A stretch of 64,000 nucleotides of DNA from an uncultured Elusimicrobia bacterium (GTDB lineage Bacteria; Elusimicrobiota; Endomicrobiia; Endomicrobiales; CAIRNS01): NCBI GenBank assembly GCA_903880015.1, contig CAIRNS010000001.1:1-64000 (forward strand), read 5' to 3'. Below the pieces are notes generated by a model. The model ran no database searches, was not told where the DNA came from, and worked only from the letters and a program-made list of their open reading frames with translations. Shown here in pieces: positions 47,955 to 57,177 of this stretch (position 1 is the stretch's first letter; each line of letters starts with the position of its first letter). The translations under genes were made by a program, and so were the position numbers.

Positions 47955-50054
47955 ATAAGCGATCCTGTACAGTACCTTAAAGGTGTCGGCCCCCAGCGCG
48001 CGAAACTGCTTGCCCGGCTCGGCATAACGACGATTGGGGATTTGTTGAATCATTATCCCCGCGAATACGAAGACCGTTCGATTCCTCGTGCCATTGCGCA
48101 CATCGGCGACGGTGAACGGGTAACGATCAAAGGGCAAGTGATTGCCGTTGACCTTATCAAACCGGCGATGAAGATCAATATCCTTAAAGTTGCCGTCCGC
48201 GATGGCACCGGGATTGTCTATGCGGTATTCTTTCGTGTCGTCAACCCCTACAGCCGCTTTGATGTATTAGGAACGCTGAAAAAACAATTAGTCCCGGGAA
48301 CCATAGCCTATTTTAGCGGAACAGCGGAAAACAATCCGGGCGGCAAACAAATTCGTGTCGATGAATACGAACCACTGATTTCAGATACAGGCGAGAAAAG
48401 CGTCCCCATTCATTTCGAACGCATTGTGCCGCTGTATCCGTTGTGCGAGGGTATCACCCAGAAATGGCTGAGAACTATCCTGTTTCATTTGGTAATCACG
48501 CAAAAGATTCGTCACCCTGATTTTTTGCCGAATGACATGCGCCGAAATAATTCATTGCTCACGGCCGAAGAAGCACTCGAGTATATACATTTCCCTCAAT
48601 CATTTATTGTAGCTGAACAAGCCCGCCGTCGCCTCGCGTTCGATGAATTCTTTTTGCTTGAGCTGGCTTTGGCAATGGTGAGAAAGAGTAAAAAAAACAC
48701 GGAGAAACAATATCGCTACACGGTGCTCAAAAAATTTCTCTCGCCTTTCAAAGAACGCCTTGGTTTTACTTTTACCGCTGATCAGAAAAAAGTCATTAAT
48801 GAGATCTTTAAAGACATGGCGCGCCCAATACCGTTGCGTCGATTGCTCATGGGCGATGTGGGATCGGGAAAAACTGTCGTTGCAGTTGCGGCAATGCTGC
48901 TGGCGGTAGAAAACGGTTACCAAACAACGCTTCTTGCTCCGACAGAGATTCTTGCAGGACAGCACTATCTCACCATAAAAAAGTTACTGGATGGATTGCC
49001 GGTCAGAATCGCTTTGGTGACTTCACAGCTCAGTTCCCGCAAAGCGGAACGGACGCGCCTGCATGCTTCTATTGCGGCCGGCGAGATTGATATTGTAATC
49101 GGAACTCATGCGGTCATAGACCGTCATGTTTCGTTTAAAAACCTCTCCCTGATTGTCATTGACGAACAGCACCGCTTCGGCGTTCTTCAGCGCGCAGCTC
49201 TGCAAATGAAAACAAATGATCCCGATGTTCTGCTGATGACCGCAACCCCGATACCCCGCACGCTGGCAATGACCATTTACGGCGACATGGATGTGTCGGT
49301 TATCGAACATGTGCCGCCCGGCCGCATGCCGATAGAAACGCTGCATCTTGACAGCGACAAGGCATACGAAATCGTCAAACGCGAGATTGCGTTAAAGCAT
49401 CAAGCGTATATCGTGTACCCACTCGTTGAGGAATCAGATAAAACCGAACTTAAGGCCGCGGTCTCCGAAGCATCTCTTTTAGCATCGTCGGTGTTTCACG
49501 GATACCGGGTGGGCCTTATTCATGGGCAGATGAAACTTGAGGAAAAAGATACAGCCATGAGGAAATTTCGTTCCGGCGAATATGATATATTGATTGCTAC
49601 TACCGTCATTGAAGTAGGGATTGATGTGCCTAATGCAACAGTTATGGTCATAGAACATGCCGATCGTTTCGGTCTGGCTACTTTGCATCAGCTGCGGGGA
49701 AGAGTGGGGCGCGGCACAGAAAAGTCATATTGCATACTGCGCGGATTTCCTGTCAGCGACAATGCCCGCCGCCGCATTAAGGCAATGCTCACTATTTCAA
49801 GCGGGTTCCGTCTTGCCGAGGAAGATTTGTCGTTACGCGGCCCGGGTGAGTTTTTCGGCACGGCCCAGCACGGTATCCCCGCTTTAAAAGCCGGAAACTT
49901 AATTCACGATATTGATATTATACAAAAAGCTCGATCCGCCGCAGAATCGCTGTCTGGCGGAGACCCGCATCTTTGGGCGCCGTCAAATCAGCCTTTAAAG
50001 ATAGCGCTATTAAGTGCGTATTCTGGCCGGTTATCCCTGTTAAATATCGGATGA
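47949..50054 (+). CDS. recG: ATP-dependent DNA helicase RecG
   Basis: 701 residues. An N-terminal wedge/OB domain that recognises branched DNA (VQYLKGVGPQRAKLLARLGI, LNHYPREYEDRS) is followed by helicase motifs I (LMGDVGSGKTVVA), II (VIDEQHR), III (LLMTATPIPRTLAM) and VI (QLRGRVGRG). It reverses stalled forks. No strong promoter was found on the + strand; weak boxes TTAATC (47901-47906) and TATTTT (47924-47929) are 17 bases apart. Confidence 0.95.
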   Translation: MQISDPVQYLKGVGPQRAKLLARLGITTIGDLLNHYPREYEDRSIPRAIAHIGDGERVTIKGQVIAVDLIKPAMKINILKVAVRDGTGIVYAVFFRVVNPYSRFDVLGTLKKQLVPGTIAYFSGTAENNPGGKQIRVDEYEPLISDTGEKSVPIHFERIVPLYPLCEGITQKWLRTILFHLVITQKIRHPDFLPNDMRRNNSLLTAEEALEYIHFPQSFIVAEQARRRLAFDEFFLLELALAMVRKSKKNTEKQYRYTVLKKFLSPFKERLGFTFTADQKKVINEIFKDMARPIPLRRLLMGDVGSGKTVVAVAAMLLAVENGYQTTLLAPTEILAGQHYLTIKKLLDGLPVRIALVTSQLSSRKAERTRLHASIAAGEIDIVIGTHAVIDRHVSFKNLSLIVIDEQHRFGVLQRAALQMKTNDPDVLLMTATPIPRTLAMTIYGDMDVSVIEHVPPGRMPIETLHLDSDKAYEIVKREIALKHQAYIVYPLVEESDKTELKAAVSEASLLASSVFHGYRVGLIHGQMKLEEKDTAMRKFRSGEYDILIATTVIEVGIDVPNATVMVIEHADRFGLATLHQLRGRVGRGTEKSYCILRGFPVSDNARRRIKAMLTISSGFRLAEEDLSLRGPGEFFGTAQHGIPALKAGNLIHDIDIIQKARSAAESLSGGDPHLWAPSNQPLKIALLSAYSGRLSLLNIG

Positions 50055-50094
50055 AATTGATACTCGACGGGGGATTTTCTATTTTTAAAATACA

Positions 50095-50123
50095 TTGACA
50101 AATCTTGGCAAATATACTAAAAA
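50095..50123 (+). promoter_or_regulatory. Possible promoter before coaD
   Basis: A perfect TTGACA (50095-50100), a 17-base spacer and TAAAAA (50118-50123); a better TATACT (50113-50118) is only 12 bases from the -35. Either choice puts transcription start within about 10 bases of the ATG at 50133, and no Shine-Dalgarno box is visible. Confidence 0.4.
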
Positions 50124-50132
50124 CTGATATAT

Positions 50133-50636
50133 ATGAATCAACAATGTGCAGTATATCCAGGAAGTTTTGATCCGCCGACAAACGGGCATCTTGATATTCT
50201 GTTGCGTGCTACCCAGCTTTTTCCGAAGGTCATAGTTGCTGTTACCGACAATCAGAACAAAAATCCTTCATTTACCCTCGAAGAGCGCTTGACGATGCTT
50301 CGCACAACTACTAGCAAAATGCACAACATTAAGGTTGACTCCTTTTCCGGACTTCTGGTTGACTATGTTCAGCAATCACGGGCATCGGTTATCATACGCG
50401 GATTGCGCGCTGTTTCTGATTTTGAATACGAATTCCAAATGGCGCTGATGAACCGCCGGCTTAACCGTAGTGTCATTACCGTTTTTCTTATGCCGGATGA
50501 ATCATACACATACCTTTCATCAAGTGTAGTCAGGGAAGTTGCCCGTCATGGCGGGTCGTTACGGGGATTGGTTCATCCGTCTGTAGAAAAGAAATTAAAG
50601 AAATTGTACCGTATACCATCGCATCCCATAGGTTGA
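50133..50636 (+). CDS. coaD: Phosphopantetheine adenylyltransferase
   Basis: 167 residues, full length. Nucleotidyltransferase signature GSFDPPTNGHLDILLRA (TxGH-type motif), IIRGLRAVSDFEYEFQMALMN and the C-terminal SSSVVREVARHGGSLRGLV are all conserved. It makes dephospho-CoA in coenzyme A synthesis. It stands between recG and the pilus genes. Upstream sequence lacks a ribosome binding site. Confidence 0.96.
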   Translation: MNQQCAVYPGSFDPPTNGHLDILLRATQLFPKVIVAVTDNQNKNPSFTLEERLTMLRTTTSKMHNIKVDSFSGLLVDYVQQSRASVIIRGLRAVSDFEYEFQMALMNRRLNRSVITVFLMPDESYTYLSSSVVREVARHGGSLRGLVHPSVEKKLKKLYRIPSHPIG

Positions 50637-50672
50637 CGAGGCATTGATGTTTGACGGGAATTGGAGGTCATC

Positions 50673-51746
50673 ATGCTCAATATGCAGGATTTGCTGATGT
50701 TGATGGTCCACAAAAACGCCTCAGACCTTCATATCACTGCCGGCATCTCTCCGGTGCTGAGAATTGACGGAGAAGTTGTACAAACCGATTACGAGAAACT
50801 GACCCCCGACCATTGTCAACGATTAATCTATTCGCTTTTAACCGATACCCAAAAAGAGAAATTTGAGTCAACGAACGAACTTGATTTGTCCTTTGGCATC
50901 AAAGGTGTCGGTAGAGTGAGGATGAATGTGTACCGCCAGCGTGGTTCTGTAGGAGCGGCATTGCGTTCTATATCGCAGAAGATAATGACTTTTGAAGAAC
51001 TCCGGTTACCTCCTGTTGTACACGAAATCATGAAACTGCATAAAGGATTGGTATTGGTAACCGGACCTACCGGTTCGGGAAAATCAACGACACTTGCTTC
51101 ATTAATTAATCATCTCAACGAAACCCGAGCGGGACACATTGTTACCATTGAGGATCCCATCGAGTATGTGCATATTCACAAAAAATCAATAGTCAATCAG
51201 CGGGAAATCGGCTCCGACAGTTTTACCTTTGAAGCAGCGTTAAAATATGTTTTGCGTCAGGATCCGAATATTATTTTACTCGGAGAAATGCGCGACCTTG
51301 TGACCATTGCTTCAGCATTGACACTTGCTGAAACCGGACATCTGGTATTTGCCACACTCCATACGACTGATGCAGCTTCTTCGATTAACCGTATTATTGA
51401 TGTTTTTCCACCCTATCAACAGTCACAGATTCGCGCCCAATTATCGATGACGCTGCAGGCAGTTTTCGCTCAGCAGCTGCTGCCGCGCGCATCCGGTTCC
51501 GGGCGTGTGCTGGCGTGTGAAGTGATGATGATGACTCCGGGCATCAGGAACATGGTCCGTGAAATGAAGATTGAACAAATATATTTGGCTATGCAGACCG
51601 GCGCAAAATACGGTATGCAGACCATGAATCAGTCACTCTATGACCTTTACTCCCGCAGGGAAATACCCTACCAAACCGCGCTTGATGCCAGCACGGATGT
51701 TGACGATATGAAGCGCATCATGCAGAAAACACCCCTCAATAAGTAA
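50673..51746 (+). CDS. pilT: Type IV pilus retraction ATPase PilT
   Basis: 357 residues from the ATG at 50673 with GGAGGT at 50663-50668; an in-frame TTG at 50661 overlaps the ribosome site and is unlikely. Walker A GPTGSGKSTT near 131-140, Asp box and Walker B RQDPNIILLGEMRD, and the His box LVFATLHTTDAASS. The GIRNMVRE motif corresponds to the PilT retraction signature AIRNLIRE. It powers pilus disassembly and twitching. The extension ATPase PilB is not in the window. Confidence 0.94.
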   Translation: MLNMQDLLMLMVHKNASDLHITAGISPVLRIDGEVVQTDYEKLTPDHCQRLIYSLLTDTQKEKFESTNELDLSFGIKGVGRVRMNVYRQRGSVGAALRSISQKIMTFEELRLPPVVHEIMKLHKGLVLVTGPTGSGKSTTLASLINHLNETRAGHIVTIEDPIEYVHIHKKSIVNQREIGSDSFTFEAALKYVLRQDPNIILLGEMRDLVTIASALTLAETGHLVFATLHTTDAASSINRIIDVFPPYQQSQIRAQLSMTLQAVFAQQLLPRASGSGRVLACEVMMMTPGIRNMVREMKIEQIYLAMQTGAKYGMQTMNQSLYDLYSRREIPYQTALDASTDVDDMKRIMQKTPLNK

Positions 51747-51761
51747 CATAAAGGAAACAAC

Positions 51762-52991
51762 ATGCCATTGTTTCGGTATCATGCACGAACTTCGTCAGGA
51801 AATATAGTAACCGCCACCGTAGAAGCACCAGATAAACGCGGTGTGAGCGAGAAATTGCATAGCCAGAAATTGATACTCATCAATGCGAGCATTGTTACGG
51901 CAAACCCTTTCGTTGCATTTTTAAAAAAAATCAATCCATTAAAACCAAAAGTATCAGCACGAGAACTGGTGTTGTTTTCTCGGCAGTTCTCTACGCTCGT
52001 TACCGCAGGCATTCCCATCGTCCAAGGTTTGACTATATTGATGGATCAGGCGGAAACGCCGCTGTTCAAAAAAGTAATCGCTGCTTTACGCGCAGATATC
52101 GAACAGGGAATTTCAATCACCGACGCCATGAAAAAGCACCCCGAAGCATTTTCCGAGCTCTATGTATCGATGATACGGGCAGGGGAATTGGGCGGCATAT
52201 TGGATGCAATAATGGATCGGGTTTCCGCATACCTTGAATCAACGGAAGAACTCAAAGGAAAAGTTAAGGGAGCGATGGTTTATCCTGCCGTGATTTCTTG
52301 CGTAGCAGGAGCGGTTACACTTTTTCTTCTCGTTTTCATTATCCCGACTTTTGCTGGTATTTTTTCCGGATTCGGCGCTCAGTTGCCACTGCCTACACGA
52401 CTCATGATCGGATTATCAAATATACTGCGTCATTATTTCCCTGCATTAATCGTTTTTTCAATCGCTACATATTTTGGCATGAAAAAATTCCGTTCAACAG
52501 AAAAAGGAAAATTTTTGACAGACACATACCTATTAAAACTTCCGATCTTCGGGTTGTTATTGAAAAAAGTAGCCGTTGCAAAATTCAGCCGAACATTGGG
52601 GACATTGATAAAATCGGGGGTTCCCATACTCCAGGCGCTTGATACGGTTGGTAAAACCAGCGGCAACCGCGTCATTGAACAGGCTATTGATACTGCCCGT
52701 AAATCGGTTAAAGACGGAGAACGCATGGCGGAACCGCTGCGCAGAACTGCTGTTTTCCCGCCCATGGTTATTCAGATGATTGCTATCGGCGAAGAAACAG
52801 GCACACTTGACACCATGCTTAACAAGATAGCTGATTTTTATGACCAGCAAGTCGATGTATCCGTAAAAGCGTTAACGAGCATGATTGAACCGTTGATCAT
52901 GGTAGTTATGGGTGTTGTCGTCGGAGCTATTGTCATGTCGATGTTTCTGCCTATGTTTGAGCTGGGGGAATTGGCAAGCAGAGCAGGATAG
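51762..52991 (+). CDS. pilC: Type IV pilus inner-membrane platform protein PilC
   Basis: 409 residues. Two T2SF domains, each with the conserved FSRQFSTLVTAGIPIVQGL and FSRTLGTLIKSGVPILQAL stretches, and three membrane helices (the last near MIEPLIMVVMGVVVGAIVMS). It is the cytoplasmic membrane platform that contacts PilB/PilT. Lies 15 bases after pilT, as usual. Confidence 0.94.
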   Translation: MPLFRYHARTSSGNIVTATVEAPDKRGVSEKLHSQKLILINASIVTANPFVAFLKKINPLKPKVSARELVLFSRQFSTLVTAGIPIVQGLTILMDQAETPLFKKVIAALRADIEQGISITDAMKKHPEAFSELYVSMIRAGELGGILDAIMDRVSAYLESTEELKGKVKGAMVYPAVISCVAGAVTLFLLVFIIPTFAGIFSGFGAQLPLPTRLMIGLSNILRHYFPALIVFSIATYFGMKKFRSTEKGKFLTDTYLLKLPIFGLLLKKVAVAKFSRTLGTLIKSGVPILQALDTVGKTSGNRVIEQAIDTARKSVKDGERMAEPLRRTAVFPPMVIQMIAIGEETGTLDTMLNKIADFYDQQVDVSVKALTSMIEPLIMVVMGVVVGAIVMSMFLPMFELGELASRAG

Positions 52992-53004
52992 GGTACCACA
53001 GTCA

Positions 53005-53033
53005 TTGACACAATTGAAATGAATTGATAAAAT
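53005..53033 (+). promoter_or_regulatory. Strong promoter of the pilin gene
   Basis: Perfect TTGACA (53005-53010), 17-base spacer, TAAAAT (53028-53033) preceded by TGA (extended -10). The leader is about 33 bases and carries a strong AAGGGGGTGA ribosome site. Three ATTGA copies at 53004, 53013 and 53023 are spaced about one helical turn apart. Confidence 0.85.
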
Positions 53034-53072
53034 TCTATAAAGACAATACTAAAAGCAAGGGGGTGAAACACA

Positions 53073-53558
53073 ATGAAGAAAGCAAAAGGTTTTACGCTGA
53101 TTGAACTGATGATAGTTGTTGCAATTATCGGTATTCTTTCAGCAATTGCTATACCTAAGTTCGCTGATCTCATTCGTAAATCAAACGAAGGATCCACGAA
53201 AGGCAATTTAGGCGCCATTCGCAGTTCTGTTTCCATTTATTACGGAGAACAGGAGGGATGGTTCCCTGTGCCGTCAGCAGGTGGTCAAGCGAGCGTTGCC
53301 GGATCACTGGGTGCGATACTGACTATGGAGAACGGAAAGTACTTAAAGGATCTTCCGCCCTCCTATTGTCCGCCGTATCATCCTAAATCTGCGGCAATGG
53401 CGACCGTTACCATATCCAGCGCCAGCGAGGCTAATGCGGCTGATGCAGGACTATGGGGATACAAAAATGTTAATGACGGAATCGGAAGACAGTGGGGAGA
53501 TGTATGGGTGAATTGCACCGATACTGATTCACGGTCTACCGTGTGGGGCGGGTACTAG
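53073..53558 (+). CDS. pilA: Type IV pilin (major pilin candidate)
   Basis: 161 residues. Short leader MKKAKG followed by FTLIELMIVVAIIGILSAIA is a class III signal: cleavage after Gly6, N-methylation of Phe7, and Glu at mature position 5. A hydrophobic helix forms the pilus core. The C-terminal globular part is of the short GspG-like sort and has two cysteines (PPSYCPPYHP and VNCTDTD) that could form a disulfide. Strong promoter, strong ribosome site and following terminator show high, separate expression. It is the only pilin in the window; whether it is the major pilin is inferred from these expression signals. Confidence 0.9.
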   Translation: MKKAKGFTLIELMIVVAIIGILSAIAIPKFADLIRKSNEGSTKGNLGAIRSSVSIYYGEQEGWFPVPSAGGQASVAGSLGAILTMENGKYLKDLPPSYCPPYHPKSAAMATVTISSASEANAADAGLWGYKNVNDGIGRQWGDVWVNCTDTDSRSTVWGGY

Positions 53559-53564
53559 TTTCCC

Positions 53565-54404
53565 GTGGAATTATTTAACGGGGGCCTTCTTGATGTACTC
53601 AAGGAGGCCCCTGTTTTTTTTACGATTATTTATTTACTTGCCGTATTCATTTTTGGCTGTTTGATTGGAAGTTTTACCAATGTCTGCATGTATCGCATCC
53701 CGTTAGACCAATCTATCTGCCACCCGCGTTCACACTGTACATCATGTAACACCTTGATTTCATGGTACGACAATGTCCCGATTTTCAGCTATATAGTGCT
53801 CGGCAGAAAATGCCGCCATTGCGGCTCGCCTATTTCATGGCGCTATCCTTTCGTTGAATTCCTGACGGGAACTGCATTTTTTTTAATTGCATACTACTAT
53901 TCTTTGCAAATGATCGTACCCTTTTTTCTCTATTATTCTTTTGTCATGATTTGTATTTCCGGCATTGATATATCTTCTCAGATAATTCCCGATGTATTTT
54001 CACTTTCCCTGATTGCTGTCGGCATCGGCAGCAGTATATTCAACCCATTACTGGGGAACGGTCCCGGTGAACGGATTTTCAATTCATTGTTGGGAATGGG
54101 AGCCGGTGGGGGAATATTACTTCTTCTCGGCATTTTAGGAACATGGATGTTTAAAAAAGATGCAATGGGCGGCGGCGATTTAAAACTGCTTGCGGGAATA
54201 GGTGCATTTATCGGTTGGCATAAGGTATTTTCAACCCTTTTTATTGCATCGGTATTGGGAACAATTATTGGAGTTTACCTGATACTTTCCAAGAAAATTG
54301 AACGCCGCGGCTATATACCGTTCGGTCCTTTTTTGGCTCTGGCTGGCTATATAAATCTGTTTATTCCTGACCCCTTGATAATTCTATCCCAGCTTTGGTT
54401 TTAG
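53565..54404 (+). CDS. pilD: Prepilin peptidase / N-methyltransferase
   Basis: 279 residues from the GTG at 53565. Membrane protein with about 7-8 helices. The cytosolic loop has two CxxC pairs (CTSC, CRHC), the methyltransferase/zinc loop. The aspartyl protease aspartates lie in SGIDISSQIIPD and in MGGGDLKLLAGIGAFIGW. It cuts and methylates the prepilin. The GTG start is the only plausible one: the frame is closed by the pilin TAG at 53556 and no later start keeps the first helix (about 16-38). It begins six bases after the pilin stop, in the same frame. Confidence 0.9.
   Translation: MELFNGGLLDVLKEAPVFFTIIYLLAVFIFGCLIGSFTNVCMYRIPLDQSICHPRSHCTSCNTLISWYDNVPIFSYIVLGRKCRHCGSPISWRYPFVEFLTGTAFFLIAYYYSLQMIVPFFLYYSFVMICISGIDISSQIIPDVFSLSLIAVGIGSSIFNPLLGNGPGERIFNSLLGMGAGGGILLLLGILGTWMFKKDAMGGGDLKLLAGIGAFIGWHKVFSTLFIASVLGTIIGVYLILSKKIERRGYIPFGPFLALAGYINLFIPDPLIILSQLWF
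53581..53621 (+). terminator. Strong intrinsic terminator inside the 5' end of pilD
   Basis: A 13-pair stem formed by GGGGCCTTCTTGA (53581-53593) and TCAAGGAGGCCCC (53599-53611), with one G-U pair and the five-base loop TGTAC. It is followed by TG and eight T residues (53614-53621). It ends pilin transcripts, yet lies within codons 6 to 19 of pilD when pilD starts at the GTG 53565. Some polymerases must read through to express pilD. Confidence 0.9.
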
Positions 54405-54431
54405 CTTCCTGTCAACCCTTCGTAAAAACCC

Positions 54432-54460
54432 TTGACGAAACAGCAAATAACTGTTATAAA
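54432..54460 (+). promoter_or_regulatory. Promoter of the pilMNOPQ operon
   Basis: TTGACG (54432-54437), 17-base spacer, TATAAA (54455-54460), with TGT before the -10 box (extended -10). The pilM ATG is at 54472, so the transcript would have a leader of about 5 bases or none. The bases before it (54405-54431) contain the repeated ACCCTT motif but no terminator. Confidence 0.7.
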
Positions 54461-54471
54461 TACTGTATAAA

Positions 54472-55602
54472 ATGGGTTTTACTATTTCAACCTTTTCATT
54501 ACCCCATCTTCCCTTCTTAAAACCTCGCGACACATTCGCTATAGATATAGGAACATCCTCGATAAAAGTACTTTATTTAAAAAAATCTGGCAGCCGTTAT
54601 GTGATACAATCGTGGGGAATACTGCCAATTCTTGACTCCGGATCTGAGTTATCTCCACAGGACCGGAAAGGGATGATTGTTGCACGGCTTGCCGAATTTA
54701 TCGCCAGGGAAAAAATTACCACTAAAAATATAGTAAGTTCTGTTTCAGGTAATCAAGTGGTTGTGCGGTATGTAAAGTTTCCCGCACATTCCCGTGAAGT
54801 ACTGATGCGAACCATTCAGTTTGAAGCTGAACCCTATATACCCTTCGATATAAATGATGTTGATCTGGGCATTCACATCATTGGCAACATGGTTGAGGAC
54901 GGTCAAAAAAAATTCGATTCAATCTTAGTTGCCGCTAAAAAAGATATCGCACAATCGCGGCTCGAAATATTTTCCGATTTAAATTTACGCCCAATAATCA
55001 TTGATGTTGACGCATTTGCCTTAGCCAATGCGTATGAACTTTCCTCGGACCCCTCCATTATTGAAACTGTCCTCTTGGTCAATATAGGGGCGGCGATTAC
55101 TAATCTTGCTCTTATTGACAATCACATCCCGCGCGTAGTGCGGGATATTTTTATCGCGGGGAATTCTTTCACCAAATCAATCCAAAAGAATATTTCCGGA
55201 GATTTTGTGTCAGCTGAAATAGGAAAGGCCCGCTGTGGACTGCTGATTTCTGTTGAGGACAAAGAGCGAATGCTGGCTGATGACCAAAGAGAAGCGCTTC
55301 AGGTTTCATCCGCATTAATCCCCGTTGCCCGTGAACTGATATCTGAAATACAAAAATTGATAGATTTTTATGTTGGTCAAAATTCCGACAAAGTGGTCAG
55401 CAAATTACTGTTATCCGGCGGATCAGCAGCACTCCCAAACCTGGATACCTATATTCAGCAGGAGTTGAAGATTCCGGTAATCAAATTTAATCCGGTTGCT
55501 TCTTTGTCGGGCGGTGATCGTATTGACAATGACGACGCGATCCGCATGGCTGTCGTTGCCGGGCTTGCAATCCGGCAGGAAAACGATTCAATAAAGCAAT
55601 AA
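54472..55602 (+). CDS. pilM: Type IV pilus assembly protein PilM
   Basis: 376 residues, actin-like ATPase fold: DIGTSSIKVLYLKKSG phosphate-1 motif, VSGNQVVVRYVKFP, LVNIGAAITNLALI and the C-terminal LLSGGSAALPNL. It is cytoplasmic and binds the N-terminal tail of PilN to link the alignment complex to the motor. First gene of pilMNOPQ, all spaced 1-38 bases apart. No Shine-Dalgarno box precedes it, and the promoter lies very close. Confidence 0.92.
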   Translation: MGFTISTFSLPHLPFLKPRDTFAIDIGTSSIKVLYLKKSGSRYVIQSWGILPILDSGSELSPQDRKGMIVARLAEFIAREKITTKNIVSSVSGNQVVVRYVKFPAHSREVLMRTIQFEAEPYIPFDINDVDLGIHIIGNMVEDGQKKFDSILVAAKKDIAQSRLEIFSDLNLRPIIIDVDAFALANAYELSSDPSIIETVLLVNIGAAITNLALIDNHIPRVVRDIFIAGNSFTKSIQKNISGDFVSAEIGKARCGLLISVEDKERMLADDQREALQVSSALIPVARELISEIQKLIDFYVGQNSDKVVSKLLLSGGSAALPNLDTYIQQELKIPVIKFNPVASLSGGDRIDNDDAIRMAVVAGLAIRQENDSIKQ

Positions 55603-55604
55603 TT

Positions 55605-56168
55605 ATGATTATTAAAATCAACATTTTGCCGGCAGATAGAATACCTAAAGAGGAGCGAACGGAATATCTTATCGCGGGATATGCCTTCTTTGCACTACTT
55701 GTGGTGATAGCGCTATCTCATTATGCGGTTATTTCCCATTCATATAATAAACTCCATGCGAGGATGGAAATTGCCGAGGGGCAGTTAAAGAGTTTTCAAA
55801 CTATCGTCAACAAAGTTGACATCCTGCAATCGACAAAGATTGCACTCGAGACAAAAAGCATCCTTATCAACTCATTGCTCACCGGCGGCGTTTTGTATCC
55901 CCGATTCATGGAATCCCTCGCCAAGAGAACACCGCAGGGGATTGAGATACAAAGCTTGAACACCGTTTCTCGTGGGGATGGCGGCATTGACGCTGTGCTC
56001 CTCGCTGTGGCGCTCGACAATTATTCTATTGCCGATTTTATCAGCACACTGATGTCAGATCCGGATTTTTCACTCATTGAATTGGGTGCAATTTCTTCTA
56101 CCGGCGGCTCACTATCACCAGGGGCAACTTTTCGACTGACATTTTCGTACAATAGGAAAAAGACTTAA
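55605..56168 (+). CDS. pilN: Type IV pilus assembly protein PilN
   Basis: 187 residues. Starts IIKINILPADRIPKEERTE, where the INxLP motif is the PilM-binding peptide. One membrane helix follows (AGYAFFALLVVIALSHYAVI), then a periplasmic coiled-coil and a ferredoxin-like domain. It forms the PilNO alignment complex. It follows pilM by 2 bases. Confidence 0.88.
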   Translation: MIIKINILPADRIPKEERTEYLIAGYAFFALLVVIALSHYAVISHSYNKLHARMEIAEGQLKSFQTIVNKVDILQSTKIALETKSILINSLLTGGVLYPRFMESLAKRTPQGIEIQSLNTVSRGDGGIDAVLLAVALDNYSIADFISTLMSDPDFSLIELGAISSTGGSLSPGATFRLTFSYNRKKT

Positions 56169-56171
56169 TTT

Positions 56172-56717
56172 ATGACAAAAAGAATAATTCAAAACATCAT
56201 ATTGATGCTGCTGATTTGCGGAGGGTTATCCTATGTTTTTTTTAGATTTATGATACTCCCTCTTAACACAAAATATGCGGCGGCAAAAGAGAATCTCATA
56301 AAAGCTGAAACAAAAGTTGCTGAAATGAAACAGCGGGCAGTTGAATTACCCCGCTTGGAAGCTGACATGAAGCTGCTGCAGCAGCGAGTTTCAGATCTTG
56401 AAAAGTTACTTCCCCGAGAGAAAGAAATCCCACAATTATTGCGAACAATAACAAGAACCGCGCAGAAATATCAAATTAAGGTTAATCAAATTACACCACA
56501 GCCTATTGTACCCCTGCAGAACTACAGTGAAATTCCCTTTCAATTCACGGTTCAAGGAAGTTATCATGCTATTGCTTTATTTTTAACTGATATGGGGCAA
56601 GGTCCTCGCGTCATGAGCGCTCGAAATATCGTCTTTTCACCGGCTCCTTCGGTAAAGGGTTCGCCTGTCACGATTAACGCCACTTTTGTACTGGTGACAT
56701 ATACATTTAAAGGATAA
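56172..56717 (+). CDS. pilO: Type IV pilus assembly protein PilO
   Basis: 181 residues. One N-terminal helix (IIQNIILMLLICGGLSYVFF), a long coiled-coil (about 40-90, KAETKVAEMKQRAVELPRLE) and a C-terminal ferredoxin-like fold with YSEIPFQFTVQGSYHAIALF. It pairs with PilN in the periplasm. Three bases separate it from pilN. Confidence 0.88.
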   Translation: MTKRIIQNIILMLLICGGLSYVFFRFMILPLNTKYAAAKENLIKAETKVAEMKQRAVELPRLEADMKLLQQRVSDLEKLLPREKEIPQLLRTITRTAQKYQIKVNQITPQPIVPLQNYSEIPFQFTVQGSYHAIALFLTDMGQGPRVMSARNIVFSPAPSVKGSPVTINATFVLVTYTFKG

Positions 56718-56718
56718 C

Positions 56719-57177
56719 ATGCAATTAAAACTTGTTATGATACTTTGTGGTGCACTTTTTTTGACGGGATGCGGGCAGGAAGATGTTCCGATAACGCCTA
56801 ATCAGATAATTAAATTGCCGGCAATTAATTTAAAAGTTACTGCCGGCAAGAGCATTGGTGAACGTTACGAATATGCGGGAGACATATACCGCGATCCGTT
56901 CATGTCGATCAACAGAGAAGGGATGTCTGTCTCAGGCACCGATGAGATTGTTATTCCCAATATTGGCTCGCTAAAGCTCAAGGGGTTAATGTCTGAAGGA
57001 AAACAAAAGATTGCCATTTTATCTAACGGTGTTTTTGGGTATGTATTGAAAGAGAAGTTGCTTTACGATAGTCGCCAGCGCCTTATTCCCGGATTTACGG
57101 GTATTTTCAAAGAAGGAAGCGTCATTATTGTTGCACCCGACAAATCGACAAAGGAAATCCATCTGCGTGAACGGTAG
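56719..57177 (+). CDS. pilP: Type IV pilus lipoprotein PilP
   Basis: 152 residues. Signal peptide ending in a lipobox (LFLTGC), then a disordered stretch and a small beta domain (YRDPFMSI, then LKLKGLMSEGKQKIAILSNG) that contacts PilN/PilO and the secretin. Typical short PilP. It overlaps nothing and follows pilO by one base. Confidence 0.86.
   Translation: MQLKLVMILCGALFLTGCGQEDVPITPNQIIKLPAINLKVTAGKSIGERYEYAGDIYRDPFMSINREGMSVSGTDEIVIPNIGSLKLKGLMSEGKQKIAILSNGVFGYVLKEKLLYDSRQRLIPGFTGIFKEGSVIIVAPDKSTKEIHLRER

Follow-up and report, generated by a model that had tools for sequence, protein, structure and literature searches.

A strong predicted intrinsic terminator between the pilin and prepilin peptidase genes of an Elusimicrobiota genome, kept by position among relatives and probably read through to pilD

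Intrinsic terminators inside operons set a high-to-low ratio between neighbouring genes (PMC9045158), for example after the binding-protein genes of ABC transporters, where a strong hairpin follows the gene for the excess product and a catalytic or low-number partner downstream is reached by read-through. In E. coli, terminators at 17–18 bp from a stop codon have an efficiency of about 0.12 or 0.8, depending on sequence, and efficiency is maximal above about 27–30 bp (PMC4824070). The ribosome is unable to catch RNA polymerase within the first 100 bp, so that a terminator placed 30 bp into an ORF escapes repression, and construct W48 yields non-stop complexes and mRNA of reduced stability (PMC4824070). 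Closely spaced terminator–promoter pairs, at which a polymerase that has just terminated may be used again, have also been described (PMC6978380, PMC6978322).

The junction considered here lies in a window of 64,000 nt, the whole stretch of DNA that was analysed, from an Elusimicrobiota genome of 1.8 Mb scored as 99.9% complete with 0.35% contamination. The best-matching named loci for the region in the public set are Elusimicrobia, and the nearest relatives compared with this genome belong to other families of the same order. The window carries a type IV pilus cluster in the order PilT-like ATPase, PilC-like T2SSF protein, pilin, PilD, and then PilM, PilN and PilO, with a predicted terminator just past the pilin stop codon (Table 1). 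As in the operons of PMC9045158, a strong hairpin follows the gene for an excess product, and a catalytic partner downstream is predicted to be reached by read-through; that partner also lacks a promoter of its own, as expected of a stoichiometry-setting terminator and as judged by computation for one promoter type. The pilin terminator differs from those examples, which have U-poor tracts, in its full eight-T tract and in adjoining or overlapping the beginning of pilD. It can also be compared with the pyrBI attenuator and the tR2 constructs, in which terminators lie near or within ORFs (PMC4824070): its hairpin begins 18 nt past the pilin stop, a distance at which ribosomes partly repress termination, and about 12 nt past the candidate GTG start, a placement comparable to that in W48, but no leader peptide, sensed nucleotide or pause site was found at the junction. 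The systems of PMC6978380 and PMC6978322 resemble five relatives, which carry a −10 element directly after the T-tract, but not the window, which is without a promoter there. A literature search returned no report of the pilin–pilD junction in Elusimicrobiota. The parts and the principle have been described before; the novelty, of modest interest, lies in a series of such junctions within one bacterial class.

Table 1. Features of the pilin–pilD junction, in window coordinates
Feature	Position	Strand	Basis
Predicted sigma-70 type pilin promoter, TTGACA-17-TAAAAT	53005..53033	+	11/12 consensus matches
Type IV pilin gene, 161 aa, stop TAG 53556–53558	53073..53558	+	ORF list; Pfam N_methyl E=3e-10
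pilD, prepilin peptidase	53565..54404	+	Pfam PF01478 (Peptidase_A24) E=1e-17, PF06750 (A24_N_bact) E=5e-33
GTG, candidate PilD start	53565..53567	+	Only ATG/GTG/TTG in frame upstream of conserved first helix
Intrinsic terminator hairpin, 17 pairs (two G-U), loop TGTAC (5 nt)	53577..53615	+	Folding, hairpin scan
Eight-T tract of terminator	53614..53621	+	Sequence
ACG codon aligned with relatives' initiator ATG, 15 residues before GSF	53622..53624	+	Frame and sequence comparison

Folding analysis gave the hairpin an energy of −29.7 kcal/mol, and the folding energy of the local stretch lay well below that of dinucleotide shuffles (z = −7.5), none of the 200 being as stable. A scan of the 64 kb for hairpins followed by a T-tract ranked this structure first, with the runner-up at −17.4, and the same scan of four Markov-shuffled windows produced best values of only −14.8 to −19.4. 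In 770 kb of the 1.8 Mb genome, the part covered by a wider ranking, it was the second strongest terminator. The junction thus shows both features that define an intrinsic terminator, a stable G+C-rich stem-loop and, on the coding strand, a run of T immediately behind it; an Rfam search returned no match above the gathering score, only a chance-level one with E=0.62 at 53005–53101. A preliminary description of this DNA had placed a strong terminator with eight T early in the pilD frame, and it is indeed present there; the eight T were correct, whereas the stem, given as 13 pairs, is longer, and hairpin and T-run together span codons 5–19 of the GTG-started frame, where codons 6–19 had been stated.

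The predicted pilin promoter was the top promoter-like site within 50000–57000 (7 kb), and the anti-SD duplex of the pilin gene (−12.2) was the strongest among 34 genes tested. By contrast with this site, none of the sigma-70 type in 53440–53660 scored above 7/12, the lowest class among 221-nt bins; this includes the interval between 53621 and the first PilD helix, where a promoter would have spoken against dependence on read-through. A private promoter and terminator for pilin, as had been proposed, are thus well supported as predictions, by the 11/12 site and by the strongest hairpin of the 64 kb, and the proposed dependence of pilD on read-through is supported as a prediction. Since pilD gave a single match in its own genome, it is presumably expressed; from a strong terminator, the absence of a recognizable promoter and one needed gene, we infer read-through into pilD. 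A further promoter-like site, TTGACG-17-TATAAA, lies at 54431–54459 (+), directly before pilM (ATG 54472), so that the genes from pilM onward probably have their own promoter and pilD probably stands transcriptionally alone between two promoters.

Pilin–pilD junctions were compared across the order and class, in a set of 15 that omits the main sister family. A stem at this place in relatives had been put forward as a check on the terminator, and 11 of the 15 proved to have one between the pilin stop and pilD, with energies from −17.6 to −23.6 kcal/mol. These hairpins share their position, but their sequences are mutually unrelated and not alignable base by base, which points to a pilin terminator conserved by position and not by sequence. 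No hairpin is present in f6, the largest family: at its loci, L003, L004 and L006 among them, the pilD start lies within a few bases of the pilin stop or overlaps it, e.g. GAGTTATAATGACG in L006, which suggests translational coupling in place of separation.

Five relatives were found to carry a promoter fused to the terminator, with 10–11 of 12 consensus matches: G004, G006, G003 and G002 of the same order and G084 of the same class (loci L002, L013, L015, L017 and L091, respectively). The −35 element lies within the hairpin and TATAAT 1–5 nt past it, at a spacing of 17–18 bp, and pilD begins with an ATG downstream of the hairpin. At L015 this ATG is only ~7 nt beyond TATAAT, and the pilD mRNA may thus be leaderless or nearly so. 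The 13-mer TTTTTTGTATAAT occurs just 2–4 times in each of G002, G003 and G006, once at the pilin–pilD junction in all three. No genome-wide excess of a T-tract followed by TATAAT was detected, the counts resembling those of the reversed control, and 3 of 30 sampled sites had a hairpin, two of these being the pilin–pilD junction itself. Because the looser motif is not enriched and the sample yielded one other hairpin, the comparison indicates that the terminator–promoter fusion is specific to this junction and no general habit of these genomes. The fused promoter was not seen in G087, G088, G092, G093 and two others, which suggests that the fusion may be derived and that the window may never have had a pilD promoter. 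In family f10 (G092 and G093), which is without it, the hairpin ends 11–13 nt before the pilD ATG and is as far from the GSF motif as in the window (49 versus 51 nt).

The position of the PilD start bears directly on whether the hairpin is coding. The GTG at 53565 lies 6 nt from the pilin stop, upstream of the hairpin and 36 codons before GSF; its anti-SD duplex (−7.8) is better than that of 28 of the 34 genes compared, and its spacing from GGGCGGG, 12 nt, is long for an SD. In the order relatives with the terminator (G002, G003, G004 and G006), the initiator Met is found exactly 15 residues before GSF, and in the window this position is occupied by Thr (ACG 53622), directly after the T-run, with ATT codons next at 53625 and 53628. 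The conserved part of PilD begins at about 53622: residues 1–16 of the GTG frame showed no conservation within the order, similarity starting at residues 17–25, and none of the phylum relatives compared has a PilD beginning before the hairpin, so the GTG start is not shared. Alignment of the ACG with the relatives' Met says, by homology, that the hairpin lay outside the ancestral pilD gene. In 5 of 12 hairpin-bearing relatives (G002, G003, G006, G084 and the BRZ locus) the frame likewise happens to run uninterrupted across the hairpin, although each has a proper ATG downstream; from this comparison, an open frame is no evidence of coding. The preliminary description had assigned part of the PilD N terminus to the stem, a claim left unsupported by the lack of conservation of the peptide in the order, the position of the relatives' ATG after the hairpin and the ACG at the Met position; coding by the stem is possible but unproven.

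ACG and ATT start codons are rare in bacteria, and on these general grounds GTG 53565 is the more likely of the usable starts, its use being somewhat more probable than not. Initiation at a non-AUG codon after the T-run is clearly less probable, and the small remainder falls to a sequence error or another cause of the start-codon problem. The N-terminal extension was considered as a conserved PilD helix and rejected: it is weakly like two Gemmatimonadetes loci and one deltaproteobacterial locus, with shuffle fractions of 0.01–0.03 before correction for 20 comparisons, and is unconvincing after it. AAGGAGG in the 3' arm (53601–53607) was likewise rejected as a working ribosome site, as no start codon lies at a useful distance.

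We consider it likely that the hairpin is an ordinary pilin terminator, kept by position in the class, and that pilD is reached mostly by low-level read-through. In the mechanism that we infer, which covers termination, read-through, the loss of promoter and ATG, and the start codon, the terminator would stop most pilin transcription shortly after the stop codon, so that the pilin mRNA is short and abundant and carries a stable hairpin at its 3' end, while little peptidase mRNA is made. In several sister families the hairpin also holds the −35 of a separate predicted pilD promoter, so that pilD would be restarted behind the terminator from its own ATG. The window lineage would have lost the −10 and leader after the T-tract, with ACG at the ATG position, the missing promoter and ATG of this family being those of one genome, and transcription of its pilD would most likely depend on a low level of read-through at the pilin terminator. 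This leak may be aided by trailing pilin ribosomes, because 18 nt falls within the partial-repression range of E. coli; for the same reason they would be a simpler source of it than ribosomes starting pilD. Translation of PilD would then begin either at GTG 53565, which would make the hairpin coding by accident, or at a rare non-AUG codon directly after the T-run.

A more elaborate account gives the hairpin a double role. PilD would start at GTG 53565, the hairpin would serve both as terminator and as code, and ribosomes initiating pilD would open it and so promote read-through. This is the only canonical start, its distance from the pilin stop would permit re-initiation, and its anti-SD duplex is fair; the extension has its weak likeness to PilD loci of other phyla, intrinsic terminators are known to be repressed by translation across them (PMC5021804), and pyrBI is an example of translation over a terminator (PMC4824070). 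Against these points stand the absence of any phylum relative with PilD starting before the hairpin, the long spacing to GGGCGGG, and the E. coli terminator 30 bp inside an ORF that escapes repression by the ribosome (PMC4824070). Terminated pilin mRNAs would moreover contain a start without a stop, at the expected cost of non-stop complexes and reduced stability of the message, as in the comparable W48 construct (PMC4824070). From the unrepressed terminator and this cost we argue that pilD ribosomes do not control the terminator and that initiation at GTG 53565, if it occurs, is weak. Antitermination by ribosomes that open the hairpin at pilD may conceivably occur, but the account as a whole is distinctly improbable. 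Its evolutionary version, in which promoter and ATG were lost, the upstream GTG was recruited, the terminator became coding, and ribosomes coming off pilin open the hairpin as they start pilD, is very improbable; if true, peptidase synthesis would gate its own read-through and follow pilin translation.

The hairpin may instead be purely intergenic, PilD starting at ACG 53622, ATT 53625 or ATT 53628, with the GTG frame a chance extension and AAGGAGG possibly a hidden ribosome site. The exact alignment with the relatives' Met position favours such a start, as do the chance-open frames in relatives and the placement of the hairpin in G092 and G093, relative to both the pilD ATG and GSF; the rarity of ACG and ATT starts speaks against it, and AAGGAGG is 14–17 nt from these codons, too distant for a normal SD, and buried in the stem. 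We hold this to be possible but doubtful. Were base 53623 an assembly error, the true ATG would directly follow the T-run, which would make the junction like that of G092 and G093, and only this one base (C 53623) separates ACG from ATG at the expected place; the completeness and contamination of the genome, and the rest of the region, which is without signs of damage, leave a slim chance of such an error. Alternatively, pilD could have its own promoter, weak or recognized by a different sigma factor, which lies within the pilin gene or overlaps the hairpin, and the terminator would then only insulate pilin. Five relatives have a hairpin-fused promoter, and TTGATG at 53590, within the window hairpin, is possibly the remnant of a −35 element; yet at a spacing of 17–18 nt downstream of it there is almost only T and no −10, and 53440–53660 belongs to the lowest class of bins. 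A weak or non-sigma-70 promoter inside the pilin gene is possible, but we regard a promoter of this kind for pilD as unlikely.

Three arrangements thus occur in one class: a terminator with a fused promoter, a terminator right next to the start codon, and pilin and pilD genes that almost touch, with no terminator between them. The pilin-to-peptidase ratio thereby becomes a testable trait. The junction illustrates cleanly how the genes for a structural protein and for the enzyme that processes it are held apart by a terminator that persists in position while its sequence turns over, and it offers a caution, in that a structure may seem to lie 'inside' a gene only because the frame was taken too long.

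PilD itself varies among the relatives: in genus g6 (L019–L030) it is short, about 210–230 aa, and its similarity begins only near residue 90, so that it seems to lack the cytoplasmic CxxC loop domain (A24_N_bact). In the window (1–64000), the single strong intrinsic terminator stands amid almost entirely plus-strand genes, and intrinsic terminators look sparse in this genome. Recurring palindromes were also observed there, CCCCCTTTGACAAAGGGGG and TAGGGGCGGGCCTTGCGTCCGCCC (L106:15253-15294 and L111:2737-2778; L116:15397-15433 and L128:6940-6976), which are probably small mobile or REP-like repeats that mimic terminators in scans.
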